Source: Nitrososphaeraceae archaeon (GTDB lineage: Archaea; Thermoproteota; Nitrososphaeria; Nitrososphaerales; Nitrososphaeraceae). From it: a stretch of DNA of 32,328 bases. A program made the position numbers and the translations under genes. The number at the start of each line of letters is the position of its first letter. Positions within the stretch are counted from its first letter, which is position 1. Location of the stretch: NCBI GenBank assembly GCA_016782225.1, contig JADDOW010000113.1, positions 1-32,328 of the forward strand. The letters run 5' to 3'. Below the pieces are notes generated by a model, which searched no databases, was not told where the DNA came from, and was given only the letters and a program-made list of their open reading frames with translations. Below, piece after piece: positions 1,735 to 32,328 of this stretch.

Positions 1735-2952
1735 TTATTGTGTCCTTGTCGTCTTCAGCTGTTGAATCTCTTCCATGAGCCTCATTACACGGTCTGACAG
1801 AGTAATAAACGCATCATCCTTTTCCTGTAGTTTGGATTTGATTATGTGTTCGTTGTTCTCATTTTTCTCTCGCAGTTCATCAATTTCTTTTTGAAAAGTT
1901 TTATTGTTAGTGTTTTCTAGAATTGTTAGGTTTTTAACTGCTTTCAGGTAATCCTCCATAATCGCTTTTTCCTGGGGTTTGTAGTAGCTCTTTGAAATGC
2001 CCAAGTCATGCCCAATAAGCATTTCAACGTTGGCGGCCATCATGGTCTGCTCTGCCTGAGTTTTGAAAAACTTGCGGAAGCCATGAGCTGTTTTAAACTC
2101 ATGTCTTTTTTGTCCTTCTTTGAGGAGGGGACGAACATTTTGCTGAAAGAGTGCCTTTGAGATTAGGTTCCTTATGCCACTGCTTCTAAACTTTACCGGG
2201 GATTTGGCATATCCCAGTTTGGCCCCATATGTTATGTTGGTAGTTTTCCACAGGTCCCTCATAACCCATGATTCACCTGTTATTTTTTCCCCATAGGAGG
2301 AACGAAAATCAATCCACTCCTTTAAGGCATAATAAGCCTCTGGAGTTATGAATGAGAAATATTGTTCCCTATCGCCAGCATAAACAATTATCTTGGAAGC
2401 AACAATAGTATTGTCAACTTCTATGGGAATAACGTGTTTCCATCTAAGGTAGTCCCATGCACCAACTCGAATACCCGAAGAAATCATTGTGAGGATGATG
2501 GCCTTGATACGAACATCCGGATATTTTAGTATCAGGATAATCTCATCCAAGGTGGGTGACCTATCATTTGCAGCATGGTTTCCGCGTGGCATGCCTCTGG
2601 TTACAAGTCTCCAGTTGATGACAATGTCGTTCATGTCACAAAAAAGTTTCACGGGTTTGTAATAGTTAGGAATCGTTGACTCAGTAATTTCACCTCTAGC
2701 CGCCCTTTCCTTTTGAAAGATAATAAAGTCAATTAAGGAATCCTGCAGCCATTCTGTATTTGATTTGGATTTGTCATACAGGTTGTAGAGTCTTTCCTCT
2801 AAAGTTGAGCCTTCTATGTTTATAAAGTTAAGAAAAACTTCTAGCCGCTTTGGATATTGCCTTTTTGATTCAGGAGCTTTCAAGGCATATACAAACCGAT
2901 TATATGGGCCGTTGGAAATTTGTTCCCGCTTGTTTTTTAGCTCAACTGTCAT
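1735..2952 (-). CDS. Tyrosine recombinase / integrase
   Basis: A 405-residue tyrosine integrase that would cut and join DNA at an attachment site. Catalytic residues are visible in order: Arg162 (SSGIRVGA), His290 and Arg293 (HGFRKFF), His315 (LIGHDLG) and Tyr323 or Tyr324 (KSYYKP). The N-terminal 120 residues look like a SAM-like core-binding domain (SKRQYPKRLEVFLNF). Residues 345-400 form a Lys/Glu-rich coiled coil after the catalytic domain, an addition to the minimal enzyme. The gene is intact, unlike the split integrases of SSV-type archaeal viruses. Its ATG lies 52 bases from the 3' end of tRNA-Arg and it points into the element, as expected for an element integrated in that tRNA. The gene ends 10 bases from a convergent gene. 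Confidence 0.93.
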   Translation of the reverse strand: MTVELKNKREQISNGPYNRFVYALKAPESKRQYPKRLEVFLNFINIEGSTLEERLYNLYDKSKSNTEWLQDSLIDFIIFQKERAARGEITESTIPNYYKPVKLFCDMNDIVINWRLVTRGMPRGNHAANDRSPTLDEIILILKYPDVRIKAIILTMISSGIRVGAWDYLRWKHVIPIEVDNTIVASKIIVYAGDREQYFSFITPEAYYALKEWIDFRSSYGEKITGESWVMRDLWKTTNITYGAKLGYAKSPVKFRSSGIRNLISKALFQQNVRPLLKEGQKRHEFKTAHGFRKFFKTQAEQTMMAANVEMLIGHDLGISKSYYKPQEKAIMEDYLKAVKNLTILENTNNKTFQKEIDELREKNENNEHIIKSKLQEKDDAFITLSDRVMRLMEEIQQLKTTRTQ

Positions 2953-25598: not shown

Positions 25599-25775
25599 TT
25601 ATTGCATTAGATCTCTGATGCTTTTTTGGATTATGTGTTTTGCTTCCCCAGAAATACTGTAGCACTCTAATATTTTTTCGGGATTTCTTATTAATCGTTT
25701 CCTGAATTCAGGTTCGCTAGCAGCTTTTAGCAGGATTTCGCTAACAATCTCGGCTTCAATATTTTTAGAATTCAA
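25599..25775 (-). CDS. NHLP-clan-like small protein, possible RiPP precursor
   Basis: A 58-residue protein (62 if the upstream TTG at 25787 is used). The stretch LLKAASEPEFRKRLIRNPEK, then ILECYSISGEAKH, matches by eye the pattern of NHLP-clan leader proteins: alternating helix, D/E-P-E-F-R..L...P...L..Y.L/I...E. That clan (nitrile-hydratase-like leaders, Os1348- and Franean1_4349-type families) supplies leaders for ribosomally made, modified peptides. Here almost the whole protein is leader-like; the possible core is only the last residues (SIRDLMQ), and one Cys (Cys38) is present. It faces ycaO across a 168-base gap. A TATA box at 25797-25808 predicts an mRNA start near 25778, favouring TTG at 25775, with GAGG just before it. 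It may instead be a stand-alone helical protein. Confidence 0.62.
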   Translation of the reverse strand: MNSKNIEAEIVSEILLKAASEPEFRKRLIRNPEKILECYSISGEAKHIIQKSIRDLMQ

Positions 25776-25796
25776 GTAATTCCTCAAAAGAATTTG

Positions 25797-25808
25797 CTAT
25801 ATATATAC
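25797..25808 (-). promoter_or_regulatory. TATA box for the NHLP-like gene
   Basis: The plus-strand sequence ctatatatatac reads as a TATA box for the minus strand. It lies about 28 bases before the TTG at 25775 and so supports a leaderless start there. Confidence 0.5.
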
Positions 25809-25903
25809 TTAATCCATATTCATAATACACTGAATCATCACTTCTTTTACCTTTTAGAGCCGTGCCAGTCAATAATTTATGTGCAAAATGAGGAAAACAA
25901 CAA

Positions 25904-25916
25904 TTAAAATAATATT
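25904..25916 (+). promoter_or_regulatory. TATA-like box for ycaO
   Basis: The sequence ttaaaataatatt is centred about 33 bases before the TTG start of ycaO at 25944, as for a leaderless or very short-leader message. Confidence 0.42.
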
Positions 25917-25943
25917 TGATTGTTATTGACATATTAACATTAA

Positions 25944-27287
25944 TTGGAAAATATTGAGTTATCAACTCTAAAATCAAGAAAAAAATGGACATCCAAAGGA
26001 ACCTCCAGAGTGCAACCTGTGGAAGCGACCCTAAAAAATGTAAATCAAATCGTAAATGAAATTGGGATTACAAGAATAGCCGATATAACCGATATGGACC
26101 GGTTAAAGATACCAAATTTTTCATCTGTGTTGCCTGGAACTGAGGATTACATTTGGGTGTATGGTGGAAAAGGGCCAACAAGAAATCATGCGAAGGCTAG
26201 CGCAATAATGGAAAGCATAGAAAGGTTTTCGTCATTACCTAGAAACTATGCCGGTAAAACAATAAGAGGAAGCTATGAGGAACTGTCAAAGAGCCACAAT
26301 ATTCTCAAATACAGCGATGTGATAGAGCCTGTATCTTTTTCCCTGGATGACAAGATGATGATGGATTATTGTGTTGGATATGATTTGATGAGCAAAAAAA
26401 ACATTTTAGTACCACTCTCGTTAGCGCTTTTTAAATACATTCCAAAACCACCTTCCGTAAATCCATACGCCTTTTACCATACCAATGGGTTGGCGTCGGG
26501 TAATGTAATCGAGGAGGCGATTTGCCACTCATTATGCGAAGTCATAGAAAGAGATGCTGTAAGCATAGCCGAATTCGTTTCCAGTGCGTTCCAATTCCAT
26601 ATTTTGAGAACAATTGAAAATGAGTTAATCCATAATGGCGTAGGATTAAAGCCAATTGAATCAAGAAAATTCGTTGATGATAACGAAATGTATCCTGATG
26701 TTGATTTAAAGGACATGGGCGAAGACAACGAACCGACTAGAAAACTCCTGGAAAAATTCGATAATTGCCAAATTTCAATAATGGTTAAAGATGTGACTTC
26801 TGATCTTGGAATACCCACATTCATTGCAAGCAGTGTGGAGTGGATCAATCATGATTATGGTTATTTGGTTGAAGGTCATGGTACCCATCCAGACTCCAGA
26901 ATTGCGATGATCAGGGCTATTACTGAGGTGTCACAATCTAGGGCAGCTAATATCCAAGGTTCGCGAGATGACCTAAGGAAAATGAAATATGATCCGGATG
27001 ATAGCGACGACAAACGCTCTTGGCAGTTTATAAAATCCGCAAAAAACATAAAATTTACCGAAATAAGGTCGTATCACAATGAGGATATTTTGGACGACAT
27101 AAAACTGATTTTGGCAAAACTAAAAGAAAGAAAACTAAACAGGGCCATAATAGTAAATCTTACGCACCCTAAAATAAACATCCCCGTAGTGAGGGCAATT
27201 GTTCCGGGATTAGAAACGTTTAAGGTAAACAAGTCTATTGTCGGCAACAGGGCCAAAGAGTCTTTTGCAAAATGCCTAAACCAGTGA
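25944..27287 (+). CDS. ycaO: YcaO cyclodehydratase-family protein (TfuA-associated)
   Basis: A 447-residue ATP-dependent YcaO enzyme, which activates a peptide-bond carbonyl by phosphorylation. The ATP/Mg motifs are intact: GGKGPTRNHAKASAIMESIER (74-94, with Glu90, Glu93 and Arg94), CHSLCEVIERDA (194-205, with Glu199, Glu202 and Arg203), and RAITEVSQSRAANIQGSRDD (324-343, with Glu328, Gln331 and Arg333), then PVVRAIVPGLE (414-424). The C-terminus (ESFAKCLNQ) lacks the Pro-rich PxPxP end of azoline-forming YcaOs. With tfuA overlapping by 16 bases, it fits the thioamide-forming class, in which sulfur replaces backbone oxygen. In methanogens such a pair acts on McrA, but no mcr gene is in this window. 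The start is TTG; no other start precedes the conserved part. Confidence 0.92.
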   Translation: MENIELSTLKSRKKWTSKGTSRVQPVEATLKNVNQIVNEIGITRIADITDMDRLKIPNFSSVLPGTEDYIWVYGGKGPTRNHAKASAIMESIERFSSLPRNYAGKTIRGSYEELSKSHNILKYSDVIEPVSFSLDDKMMMDYCVGYDLMSKKNILVPLSLALFKYIPKPPSVNPYAFYHTNGLASGNVIEEAICHSLCEVIERDAVSIAEFVSSAFQFHILRTIENELIHNGVGLKPIESRKFVDDNEMYPDVDLKDMGEDNEPTRKLLEKFDNCQISIMVKDVTSDLGIPTFIASSVEWINHDYGYLVEGHGTHPDSRIAMIRAITEVSQSRAANIQGSRDDLRKMKYDPDDSDDKRSWQFIKSAKNIKFTEIRSYHNEDILDDIKLILAKLKERKLNRAIIVNLTHPKINIPVVRAIVPGLETFKVNKSIVGNRAKESFAKCLNQ

Positions 27288-27961
27288 TTTTTTTAGGCCC
27301 AACACTGTCAATAGAAAAGGCAAAAGGATTTCTTGATGCAGACTATAGGCTACCTGCTAAAAAAGGGGATATTCTGCAGTTAATACCGACAAGCGTAAAG
27401 ACTGTGGGCATAATTGATGGATATTTTCTCCAAGACTATCCCCCAACACCCATTGAAGTTTACAATCTATTAAGAAAAAGGGGTGTAAGGGTTTTTGGCT
27501 CCTCTAGTTTAGGAGCACTTAGAGCAGTGGAGTTAAAAAAATTCGGTATGGTGGGAATTGGAAAAATTTTTGAACTATTCTCAAAAGGGATAATGGATTC
27601 AGACGATGAAGTTGCTGTTGCATTCACTGGGTATGCGGGATACAAATCAGACGCATTGATAGACATACGATATAACTTGTTTTTAGCCCATAAAAACAAC
27701 ATAATCGATAATGACACAAAGAAAATCATTTTACGGGTTTCAAAAGACACATACTTTCCCTATCGCACATATGGCGACATAACGGATGAGTCAAAAAGAT
27801 TGTTTCCCTCTCAAAAGAGGCAAATCGAGGGTTTTAAAGAATACCTTGTGAAAAACAAGAGAAGCTTGAAAGAAAAAGATGCCATAGAACTTTTAAAGGC
27901 TATAAAACGGGAAATACGTGCCAACAACAACAACAACAACAACGATAACACTAGTGATTAG
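27272..27961 (+). CDS. tfuA: TfuA-like protein
   Basis: A 229-residue TfuA-like protein. Family marks are GPTLS (9-13), PAKKGDI (28-34), GIIDGYF (46-52), FGSSSLGALRAVEL (75-88) and the acidic DDEVAV (111-116). TfuA proteins partner YcaO and are thought to supply or place the sulfur for peptide thioamides, as studied in methanogen and actinobacterial systems. The ATG lies inside the last codons of ycaO (16-base overlap), which implies coupled translation and equal amounts of both. The last 15 residues are a poly-Asn tract (AAC triplets, 27922-27942) with no apparent domain. The membrane gene follows 42 bases after the stop. Substrate unknown. Confidence 0.9.
   Translation: MPKPVIFLGPTLSIEKAKGFLDADYRLPAKKGDILQLIPTSVKTVGIIDGYFLQDYPPTPIEVYNLLRKRGVRVFGSSSLGALRAVELKKFGMVGIGKIFELFSKGIMDSDDEVAVAFTGYAGYKSDALIDIRYNLFLAHKNNIIDNDTKKIILRVSKDTYFPYRTYGDITDESKRLFPSQKRQIEGFKEYLVKNKRSLKEKDAIELLKAIKREIRANNNNNNNDNTSD
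27922..27942 (+). repeat. AAC triplet repeat in tfuA tail
   Basis: Seven AAC codons in a row near the 3' end of tfuA encode Asn. Together with the AGC/AAC tract at the proS start and the hexamer in the GHKL gene, such repeats lie in the unstructured ends or linkers of proteins. Confidence 0.85.
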
Positions 27962-28003
27962 AAGGTAGTTTTATATCTTAATTGATTTTTTTCTAAATCA
28001 TTT

Positions 28004-28582
28004 ATGAATAAGGCGGATCACAAATATCTCGATAGGCTAATAACCCCTTATCGTATATACATTATCGTCTTTTATTTCTCGGCATTTATGATGCTGTACA
28101 TAACATCGTTTGGTATGTACTGGAGTTGGATGGATTACAAAAACACCGGAACGATAAACGTGGGCGAGATAATTGTTAAAAATGACCTGTTTTTTGATGG
28201 CGGTGGCAAGTTAGTGACATACCTGGCAATTTTCGCGGTACTGTCATGGTTTTGTGTCACTAAAATTGGTTCTCAAAGAGTATTAAATACGCCAAAAATA
28301 GCCAAAGACATATTCTCAACAATATGTGTGGTTTTGATTGTTGTATCTGCCTATGAATTCGTTTACAATTTTACTGTGTGGGGATCTCTTATCACAATTG
28401 ATGTGCTGGATAAATCAATAAATTTGGATGAATTAAACATAAAATACCCAAATCCCGAGACGCCCTGGAATCTGGTCTTTTCCACAAAGATGACCCTCGC
28501 AGCATTGATAATATCGTGCCACTCTTTTTACGTGATACACAAGTCCTACAAATCATCAACAACCATCAAAAACAAGCCATGA
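28004..28582 (+). CDS. Four-helix membrane protein after ycaO-tfuA
   Basis: A 192-residue protein with about four membrane helices: YIIVFYFSAFMMLYITSFGMYW (about 18-40), LVTYLAIFAVLSWFCV (about 68-84), ICVVLIVVSAYEFVYNF (about 106-124) and LAALIISCHSFYVI (about 167-182). Conserved-looking polar residues in membrane parts (Cys, His, Trp) exist, but no transporter or enzyme motif is evident. I do not recognise a family. It starts with ATG 42 bases after tfuA on the same strand and may be in that transcript. A part in export, sensing or membrane attachment of the modified product is possible, but only context suggests it. Confidence 0.72.
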   Translation: MNKADHKYLDRLITPYRIYIIVFYFSAFMMLYITSFGMYWSWMDYKNTGTINVGEIIVKNDLFFDGGGKLVTYLAIFAVLSWFCVTKIGSQRVLNTPKIAKDIFSTICVVLIVVSAYEFVYNFTVWGSLITIDVLDKSINLDELNIKYPNPETPWNLVFSTKMTLAALIISCHSFYVIHKSYKSSTTIKNKP

Positions 28583-28945: not shown

Positions 28946-28975
28946 TGGGAATGAAATAAAATGTTGAAATGAGCA

Positions 28976-28988
28976 AAAACATATATTA
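28976..28988 (+). promoter_or_regulatory. TATA box for small zinc protein
   Basis: The sequence aaaacatatatta is centred about 31 bases before the ATG at 29014 but only 14 before the ATG at 28996. This favours the second start, with a leaderless message. Confidence 0.5.
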
Positions 28989-28995
28989 TTACCTT

Positions 28996-29139
28996 ATGGC
29001 TCAACATAACACCATGATAACAAAAAGCTACTTTTGTTTTGAATGCGGCGCAATATTGACTACAAAAGAGGATAAAAAACAGCATGAAGAGTGGGAGGAG
29101 CTGAACAAAAAAACAACGGCACCCAAAGACGAACCCTAA
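28996..29139 (+). CDS. Small zinc-finger-like protein
   Basis: A 47-residue protein, or 41 from the ATG at 29014, which the TATA box position favours. The core FCFECGAILTTKEDKKQHEEW has the spacing Cys-x2-Cys-x12-His of a C2H2 finger, with the aromatic residue before the first Cys, but the last His is replaced (HEEW), so only three zinc ligands are clear. The C-terminus is Lys/Thr/Glu-rich. Composition and a proper promoter make it a likely gene despite its size. Small single-finger proteins of this kind are common in archaea, and their partners are mostly unknown. It is convergent with the next gene. Confidence 0.65.
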   Translation: MAQHNTMITKSYFCFECGAILTTKEDKKQHEEWEELNKKTTAPKDEP

Positions 29140-29177: not shown

Positions 29178-29513
29178 TCAAGTATCGTTGTGCTCAAACT
29201 TTTGTACCTCTATAGTGACCTTGTCCCCAACCTTGATCTTTAGATCATCATATTCTTTCATGGTGACCTTAAATGTGGGTGAATCACTCATAGCACCTCC
29301 ACCACCAAACATGTTTGTGATGTTTGACATGGCTTTTGGCAAGTTTTTCATCAAATCCTCTGGGGAAGTAAAGGCCATAACATTAGGGCCAAATGGGTTT
29401 GTTTGCTTGTCACCAGATTTATAATACTCATTTTGATCTTTAAAGGTCACATAAATGTAAGGGGACCCATCGGTGGATGCCTCAACTTTAGCCACTATAA
29501 AATCTTTTTTCAT
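29178..29513 (-). CDS. Hypothetical protein, beta-rich
   Basis: A 111-residue protein starting with ATG at 29513. The sequence alternates strands and polar loops: FIVAKVEASTDGSPYIYVTFKDQNEYYK, split by a short turn, then a Gly-rich MFGGGGAMSDSP loop (about residues 68-79) and a C-terminal FKVTMKEYDDL with KVGDKVTIEVQK. The last part resembles the strand-turn-strand KVGDKV of OB or SH3-like barrels. There is no signal peptide or membrane helix. I do not recognise a named family. It is alone between convergent and same-strand neighbours. Confidence 0.75.
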   Translation of the reverse strand: MKKDFIVAKVEASTDGSPYIYVTFKDQNEYYKSGDKQTNPFGPNVMAFTSPEDLMKNLPKAMSNITNMFGGGGAMSDSPTFKVTMKEYDDLKIKVGDKVTIEVQKFEHNDT

Positions 29514-31898: not shown

Positions 31899-32328
31899 GA
31901 ATCGGGGAATTACATTTTACTATACCTTTATATTGATAATTGCTACTATGTTTACTGCTTTAGGGAATTACCAAAACATCTATGCAACTTCTACATTCTC
32001 CGTTTTATCCAATGGCACTTTGAACAGCAATTTGAATGGCACTTTGAATCTATCACCACCATTTAATGATGAGGTATACAATACCGAATCAAACAATTTG
32101 AAAGATTGTGCTAATTGCATTGGCAATAATGACATAAACCCCAGTACTACCGCCCCCCTCATCAGCAACGATAATGGTGGCGGCAACGATAATGGCGACA
32201 TAGGCGGCGGCGGCGGCAACGATAGGCCTAATGGGAATGATATCGGCATAGGCGGCGGCGGCGGCAACGATGGCGGCAACGATGGTGGCAACGATAATGG
32301 TGACATAGGCGGCGGCAACGATGGGCCT
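31897..32328 (+). CDS. Exported Gly/Asn/Asp-rich repeat protein, cut by window end
   Basis: An open frame from ATG at 31897 to the end of the window, 144 codons without a stop. The N-terminus MNRGITFYYTFILIIATMFTALGNYQNIYA is split as a short basic part, a hydrophobic core and a likely cleavage site after IYA: a signal peptide. A Ser/Thr/Asn-rich part with NGT sites and a Cys pair (CANC, about residue 71) follows. From about residue 92 onward the chain is made of imperfect repeats such as GGGNDNGDIGGGGGND, rich in Gly, Asn and Asp. Asp/Asn-Gly repeats outside the cell may bind calcium. The GC-rich repeat DNA stands out from its AT-rich surroundings. I do not recognise the family. Confidence 0.72.
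   Translation, partial: MNRGITFYYTFILIIATMFTALGNYQNIYATSTFSVLSNGTLNSNLNGTLNLSPPFNDEVYNTESNNLKDCANCIGNNDINPSTTAPLISNDNGGGNDNGDIGGGGGNDRPNGNDIGIGGGGGNDGGNDGGNDNGDIGGGNDGP

Follow-up and report, generated by a model that had tools for sequence, protein, structure and literature searches.

A YcaO-TfuA pair with a conserved small NHLP-like partner in ammonia-oxidising archaea without McrA

Which protein might a YcaO-TfuA pair modify in an archaeon that lacks methyl-coenzyme M reductase? This question is raised by a locus in a stretch of 32,328 nucleotides (contig JADDOW010000113.1, assembly GCA_016782225.1; hereafter the window) of an archaeon of the genus Nitrosocosmicus, in which overlapping ycaO and tfuA genes are faced by an open reading frame (ORF) for a protein of 58 residues. 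Ammonia-oxidising archaea are central to nitrogen cycling, and those that carry such a pair come from soils and hot springs. On the model of the characterised pairs we presume, with a probability of roughly 55%, that an McrA-type YcaO-TfuA thioamidation pair serves a different dedicated partner in these archaea, namely the 58-residue protein, and that this partner is itself the thioamidated substrate.

Distribution of the small gene, the enzyme pair and McrA

A sample of 400 genomes of the order was searched with YcaO and with a small-protein profile of 16 rows. Both proteins were detected in 71 genomes, YcaO only in seven, the small protein only in two and neither of them in 320, small-protein matches being counted at E < 1e-9, so that another seven with E values of 3e-4 to 8e-3 were left out. 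The seven YcaO-only genomes include two Mcr-positive ones, both of family f13, two in which ycaO is located within 400 bases of the contig start (G140 and G113), one that merely holds a ycaO fragment at a contig end (G155) and two that are 66-73% complete (G213 and G234). The two genomes with the small protein only are 67-69% complete.

Wherever the two genes were found on the same contig within 5 kb, the small gene was divergent from ycaO (55 of 55 pairs), usually at a spacing of ~90-240 bases. The linked pairs comprise 14 from the window genus, 33 from elsewhere in its family, six from family f2, which we take to be the Nitrosocaldaceae, and two from family f3. The conservation of the small gene beside ycaO-tfuA in relatives, on which the first-pass annotation had made its interpretation depend, is thus found across three families. 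In the genera g4 (presumably Nitrososphaera) and g2 the small gene has been relocated yet retained, and in the closed genomes G056, G083 and G086 it lies ~1 Mb away from ycaO. Since the small gene was kept after unlinking, a functional bond between its product and YcaO is indicated. The small gene, ycaO and tfuA represent a real conserved three-gene module, and the small protein is very probably linked functionally to the YcaO-TfuA pair.

A phylum-wide search of 300 genomes detected TfuA in ammonia-oxidising families and additionally in the families f20 and f49. All tested genomes of f20 and f49 carry an mcrA-type gene, as do the genomes of f13. The small protein was found in none of 24 genomes of f20 and f49, the same query matching 73 genomes of the order, and it was absent from all 26 checked mcrA-positive genomes that carry ycaO and/or tfuA. 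At the Mcr-type ycaO loci that were read directly its gene was likewise missing (0 of 13), as compared to its presence at 12 of 12 control loci. The representatives of f1, f2 and f3 are amoA-positive, mcrA-negative and encode the small protein. Family f9, presumably the Nitrosopumilaceae, has amoA and none of the three genes of the module, and the non-amoA families that were checked contain neither YcaO nor the small protein. The TfuA-bearing Thermoproteota therefore form two sets, one being mcrA-positive without the small protein (f13, f20 and f49) and the other being amoA-positive with it (f1 to f3).

The genome to which the window belongs falls into the second set. Its assembly of 2.62 Mb, with an estimated completeness of 99.8%, encodes a single YcaO, and no mcrA was identified in it, as PF02249 gave no match while the Mcr controls did. 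The absence of methyl-coenzyme M reductase, which had been noticed from the window, thereby extends to the whole assembly.

The two enzymes and the small protein

The predicted YcaO is assigned to its superfamily by Pfam PF02624 (4.7e-70, 236.9 bits, cut-off 25.7), and the product of the adjoining gene to the TfuA family by PF07812 (5e-33, 113.9 bits, cut-off 30). The residues E90, E93, R94, E199, E202, R203, E328, Q331 and R333, which bind Mg and ATP, are invariant across the archaeal set, in agreement with the earlier observation of intact ATP motifs. A search of solved structures with the YcaO returned the methanogen YcaO MJ1094 as top match. Because the closest equivalog models are TIGR03266, which describes McrA-glycine thioamidation, and NF033432, and because the scores remain below the respective cut-offs (289.5 bits against 365 for YcaO, 198.2 bits against 235.2 for TfuA), both enzymes are to be placed near but outside the McrA-modifying families. 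The proteins of Mcr genomes pass both equivalogs with 464-527 bits (TIGR03266) and 268-274 bits (NF033432); the YcaO and TfuA proteins of the amoA clade fail both.

The YcaO tree and the TfuA tree each separate an Mcr clade from an amoA clade with a support of 100/100, and f13 groups with the Mcr clade although it belongs to the same order as the window. The catalytic and the TfuA invariants are common to the Mcr-type and the amoA-type proteins. Taken together, the shared invariants, the split into two clades and the mutual exclusion of McrA and the small protein suggest that the chemistry is probably unchanged and that the partner has changed.

Additional YcaO paralogs without TfuA were detected in the genera g8 and g9 (L043, L044 and L149-L153). 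All seven of these loci lie amid one repeated protein family with the motif YGxWAAxWWxWxxSIPKxxNP (22 members, no Pfam match), six of them contain a multi-helix membrane protein of 435-543 aa, and C1 and M4 peptidases or a Dyp-type peroxidase occur at some. Judging from their gene content they look like a separate YcaO protein-modification cluster, for which no description was found.

The small ORF is a real coding gene under strong purifying selection. Within the genus its product shows a protein identity of 72-98%, and it adjoins ycaO in all 14 genomes in which the region is present. In G063, a genome of the genus, the coordinates of the small gene (163635-163805) coincide exactly with those in NZ_VUYS01000002.1, “Candidatus Nitrosocosmicus sp. 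SS”. The pairwise ratio of non-synonymous to synonymous substitution rates (dN/dS) amounts to ~0.04-0.2 for pairs with estimable dS, and substitutions occur mainly at third codon positions. An alternative frame of 62 aa, starting from the TTG at 25787, is also open. In most of the 14 genus genomes a conserved TTGAGGAATTACTTG stretch opens the reading frame and a TATA-like element is located ~20-26 bases before the 62-aa start; the second TTG, giving 58 aa, is presumed to be the start.

At the level of sequence profiles the small protein is related to the NHLP leader/Os1348 family. Both TIGR03793 and NF038399 are matched by 12 of 16 members at E <= 0.01, and the profile of the family matches the N-terminus of nitrile hydratase alpha (8.5e-8 to 6e-7) as well as the NHLP leader 9cjx (4e-4 to 5e-3). 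A contig scan with the single sequence recovered close relatives only, apart from a match in Marinomonas (L137), which was rejected as a chance shared word, ECYSISGEA, in a regulator of the AsnC/Lrp type. AlphaFold2 predicts a four-helix fold (predicted local distance difference test score, pLDDT, 90), in which residues 37-42, [C/K/Q]Y[D/N/S][I/V]S, make up the single non-helical loop, which is conserved. The loop holds the nearly invariant Tyr39 and Ser42, and Cys38, which is present in Nitrosocosmicus, is not conserved outside this genus.

The small protein is conserved over its full length, up to the last residues, in 73 genomes, and neither a variable core nor a GG site or other cleavage motif, as expected of the precursor of a ribosomally synthesised and post-translationally modified peptide (RiPP), was detected across the alignment. 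Genus g6 encodes additional copies, the C-termini of which do not diversify. The lack of a variable core and GG site, the conservation from end to end and the undiversified paralogs speak for a protein partner of fixed sequence rather than for a RiPP that is secreted.

Layout of the locus and neighbouring genes

The coordinates of the genes (Table 1) confirm the four ORFs that had been read from the sequence, including the overlap of 16 bases between ycaO and tfuA and the gap of 42 bases between tfuA and the membrane ORF.

Table 1. Genes and intergenic elements of the module and its surroundings in the window.
Feature	Position	Strand	Remarks
ycaO	25944-27287	+	447-aa YcaO; Pfam PF02624; closest NCBIfam model TIGR03266 (below cut-off)
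tfuA	27272-27961	+	229-aa TfuA; Pfam PF07812; NF033432 below cut-off
Small gene	25599-25775	-	58-aa NHLP-like helical protein; TTG start; proposed dedicated partner/substrate of YcaO-TfuA
Divergent intergenic region	25788-25943		Holds TATA-like AAGTATATATA, conserved across the genus, directly before the small gene
Membrane protein gene	28004-28582	+	192-aa multi-helix protein; genus-specific paralog of a family-wide gene
Short CxxC-containing protein	28969-29139	+	Without named family
111-aa protein	29178-29513	-	82-85% identity across the genus; without named family
Tyrosine recombinase (integrase)-like gene, read by eye	1735-2952	-	Adjoins proteasome-like and MutL/ATPase-like genes
Proline-rich low-complexity ORF	31980-32318	-	At window edge; PPPMSPLSLPPSLPP repeats; possibly a repeat-region artefact

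The membrane gene, which the first-pass annotation had counted as a component of the system, gave nothing above cut-off against Pfam. Related genes, read at the window and at L154-L161, occur throughout the window family (64 of 70 genomes), mostly far from ycaO and with varied neighbours, and an extra copy beside tfuA was found only in Nitrosocosmicus. As a duplicate restricted to one genus, derived from a gene that the whole family shares, it was rejected as a core part and probably lies outside the core system. The order of the two genes further downstream (28969-29139 and 29178-29513) is retained across the genus.

At loci of g3, g5 and g8 (L036, L040, L041 and L042) the module adjoins genes resembling pheT, pheS and trpS, which suggests that this neighbourhood is the ancestral position of the module in the family. 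In g4 and g2 (L082-L089) the relocated small gene is embedded in a conserved housekeeping stretch between antiporter-like and DNA-glycosylase-like genes, and genes similar to those of cytochrome b and Rieske proteins, as far as their roles could be read by eye, are found nearby. These neighbours were considered as a clue to a target and dismissed, as the housekeeping stretch contains no obvious one.

Role of the small protein and comparison with known systems

In characterised systems the NHLP leader docks as a folded domain on a YcaO cyclodehydratase (PMC12455567), and TfuA has been described as a hydrolase that, together with a thiocarboxylated carrier protein, provides sulfide equivalents (PMC13063428). 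If the small protein is the substrate, the precedent of the characterised pairs suggests that one of its backbone amides would be activated by YcaO at the expense of ATP. Its helical NHLP-like body would offer the docking surface, and TfuA would be the source of sulfide equivalents, a docking aid or both. Oxygen would be replaced by sulfur inside the small protein itself, plausibly within the loop of residues 37-42, which is the most plausible site since helical segments could reach the active site of YcaO only after unwinding. The product would presumably be a retained, conserved intracellular modified protein and not a cleaved or exported natural product, and the small protein is best grouped with McrA and uL16, as a protein thioamide, rather than with secreted RiPPs. 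The extra small-protein copies in g6 fit the role of a substrate.

Several points weigh against this reading. The genomes are related, and because the joint occurrence is confined to a cluster of three families that are themselves related, a Fisher p overstates independence. The leader-protein signature seen earlier is real at profile level, but a single small-protein sequence remains below the curated cut-offs (TIGR03793 7e-5 and NF038399 9e-5, 22.6-22.8 bits, cut-offs 50.9 and 40) and a split into leader and core is not apparent. A fold search of the PDB with the model gave no significant match, the best balanced TM-scores being those of SonA (0.61/0.66; prob 0.38, E 3.3, not significant). 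Conservation over the full length is also compatible with a leader or adaptor acting in trans.

Such a stand-alone leader-like adaptor, which is the main rival reading, would bind YcaO-TfuA in trans, and the thioamide would be formed on another cellular protein. It would account for a small protein that resembles a leader without core, for the retention of its gene in Nitrososphaera-type genomes despite unlinking and for a sequence in which no acceptor residue is marked. However, no co-distributed target is known, and a target common to all ammonia oxidisers seems unlikely because f9 possesses amoA without YcaO and the small protein. Taking furthermore into account that the extra copies in g6 would better suit a substrate, we regard an adaptor as possible but rather unlikely. 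A conventional thioamidated RiPP appears improbable; the small protein would then be a precursor that undergoes modification, cleavage and export, and the membrane protein would serve in export or immunity. YcaO-TfuA pairs are indeed used by thioamidated RiPP clusters (PMC8120280), the small protein resembles NHLP RiPP leaders and a membrane gene lies downstream of tfuA in the window, but this copy is the genus-only duplicate, variable core and GG cleavage motif are both absent and the loci read contain no consistent protease or ABC transporter. The lack of a leader/core split, the conservation of the whole length and the failed NHLP cut-offs render a “precursor peptide” of the RiPP type doubtful.

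The small protein might also be the substrate of a modification other than a thioamide, such as an azoline, an amidine or another YcaO product, given that YcaO enzymes accept several nucleophiles (PMC13063428) and that Nitrosocosmicus has a Cys at position 38. This appears quite improbable, given that TfuA is the hallmark of thioamide formation where such systems have been characterised, that the best model for the YcaO is the one for McrA thioamidation and that Cys38 is not conserved beyond the genus. Least of all do we expect that the pair modifies a housekeeping protein, for instance a ribosomal one, and that the small ORF lies beside its genes by chance. The YcaO of E. coli was proven to thioamidate uL16, likewise a static substrate (PMC13063428), but YcaO of the uL16 type functions without TfuA, and a chance neighbour would leave the conservation in three families, the retention when unlinked and the absence without YcaO unexplained.

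The small protein as thioamidated substrate hence remains our preferred reading. The possible thioamide system proposed by the first-pass annotation stands with respect to the YcaO-TfuA pair without McrA and the conserved leader-like partner; the membrane gene probably does not belong to its core, and a RiPP-type precursor is doubtful. Whether the module represents a third class of protein backbone thioamidation, in which a stand-alone NHLP-fold protein would have taken the place of McrA beside the ancient pair and would act as a permanently modified working protein instead of a leader, stands at about even odds; the module would then date back to the common ancestor of three or more families with amoA, and a fourth family, presumably the Nitrosopumilaceae, would have lost it.

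If true, the small protein would be a third protein with an enzymatic thioamide, occurring across three families of ammonia-oxidising archaea, “methanogenesis marker 1” would have a function outside methanogenesis, and the enzyme pair would have changed its substrate. The prediction is directly testable on the 58-aa partner in cultured strains, which exist for Nitrososphaera, Nitrosocosmicus and Nitrosocaldus, and a +16 Da signal may already be contained in existing proteomes, misread as oxidation. The enzymatically made protein thioamides counted in 2026 were two, those of McrA and uL16 (PMC13063428).

The YcaO and TfuA of these archaea are already known: an eLife paper of 2017 placed the YcaO homologs of ammonia-oxidising archaea within the methanogen clade, and a genome-mining paper of 2021 reported eight TfuA clusters in Thaumarchaeota. 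In the literature searched, the coverage of which was incomplete, neither the conserved small partner nor its synteny nor the mutual exclusion with McrA was found described, and, within the same limits, nothing was found on YcaO, TfuA or thioamide in connection with Nitrososphaera.

Among the known systems, the split borosin precursor SonA (PMC8429565) is likewise a small stand-alone helical precursor with a backbone modification, but it is methylated by an unrelated enzyme and possesses a C-terminal core, and the fold match to it is not significant (E 3.3). Thioamitide RiPP clusters share the YcaO-TfuA pair, whereas neither a hypervariable core nor a dedicated protease, a transporter or further tailoring enzymes were found here. 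With the NHLP leader/Os1348 family (TIGR03793, NF038399) the small protein shares the profile match and the helix signature A..ePeFR..L...P...L..y.i; it differs in scores below the cut-offs, in the lack of a core or cleavage site and in a C-terminal helix where leaders continue into the core. The YcaO-uL16 system of E. coli (PMC13063428) resembles the module in combining YcaO with a conserved static protein substrate instead of a RiPP core, but it operates without TfuA on a ribosomal target encoded elsewhere. The methanogen pair for McrA-glycine thioamidation (TIGR03266/NF033432; PMC5589413) provides the closest models, the same catalytic and TfuA invariants and an overlapping ycaO-tfuA operon; in contrast to it, the pair described here occurs without McrA, misses both equivalog cut-offs, forms a separate clade and is accompanied by a constant small NHLP-like partner.

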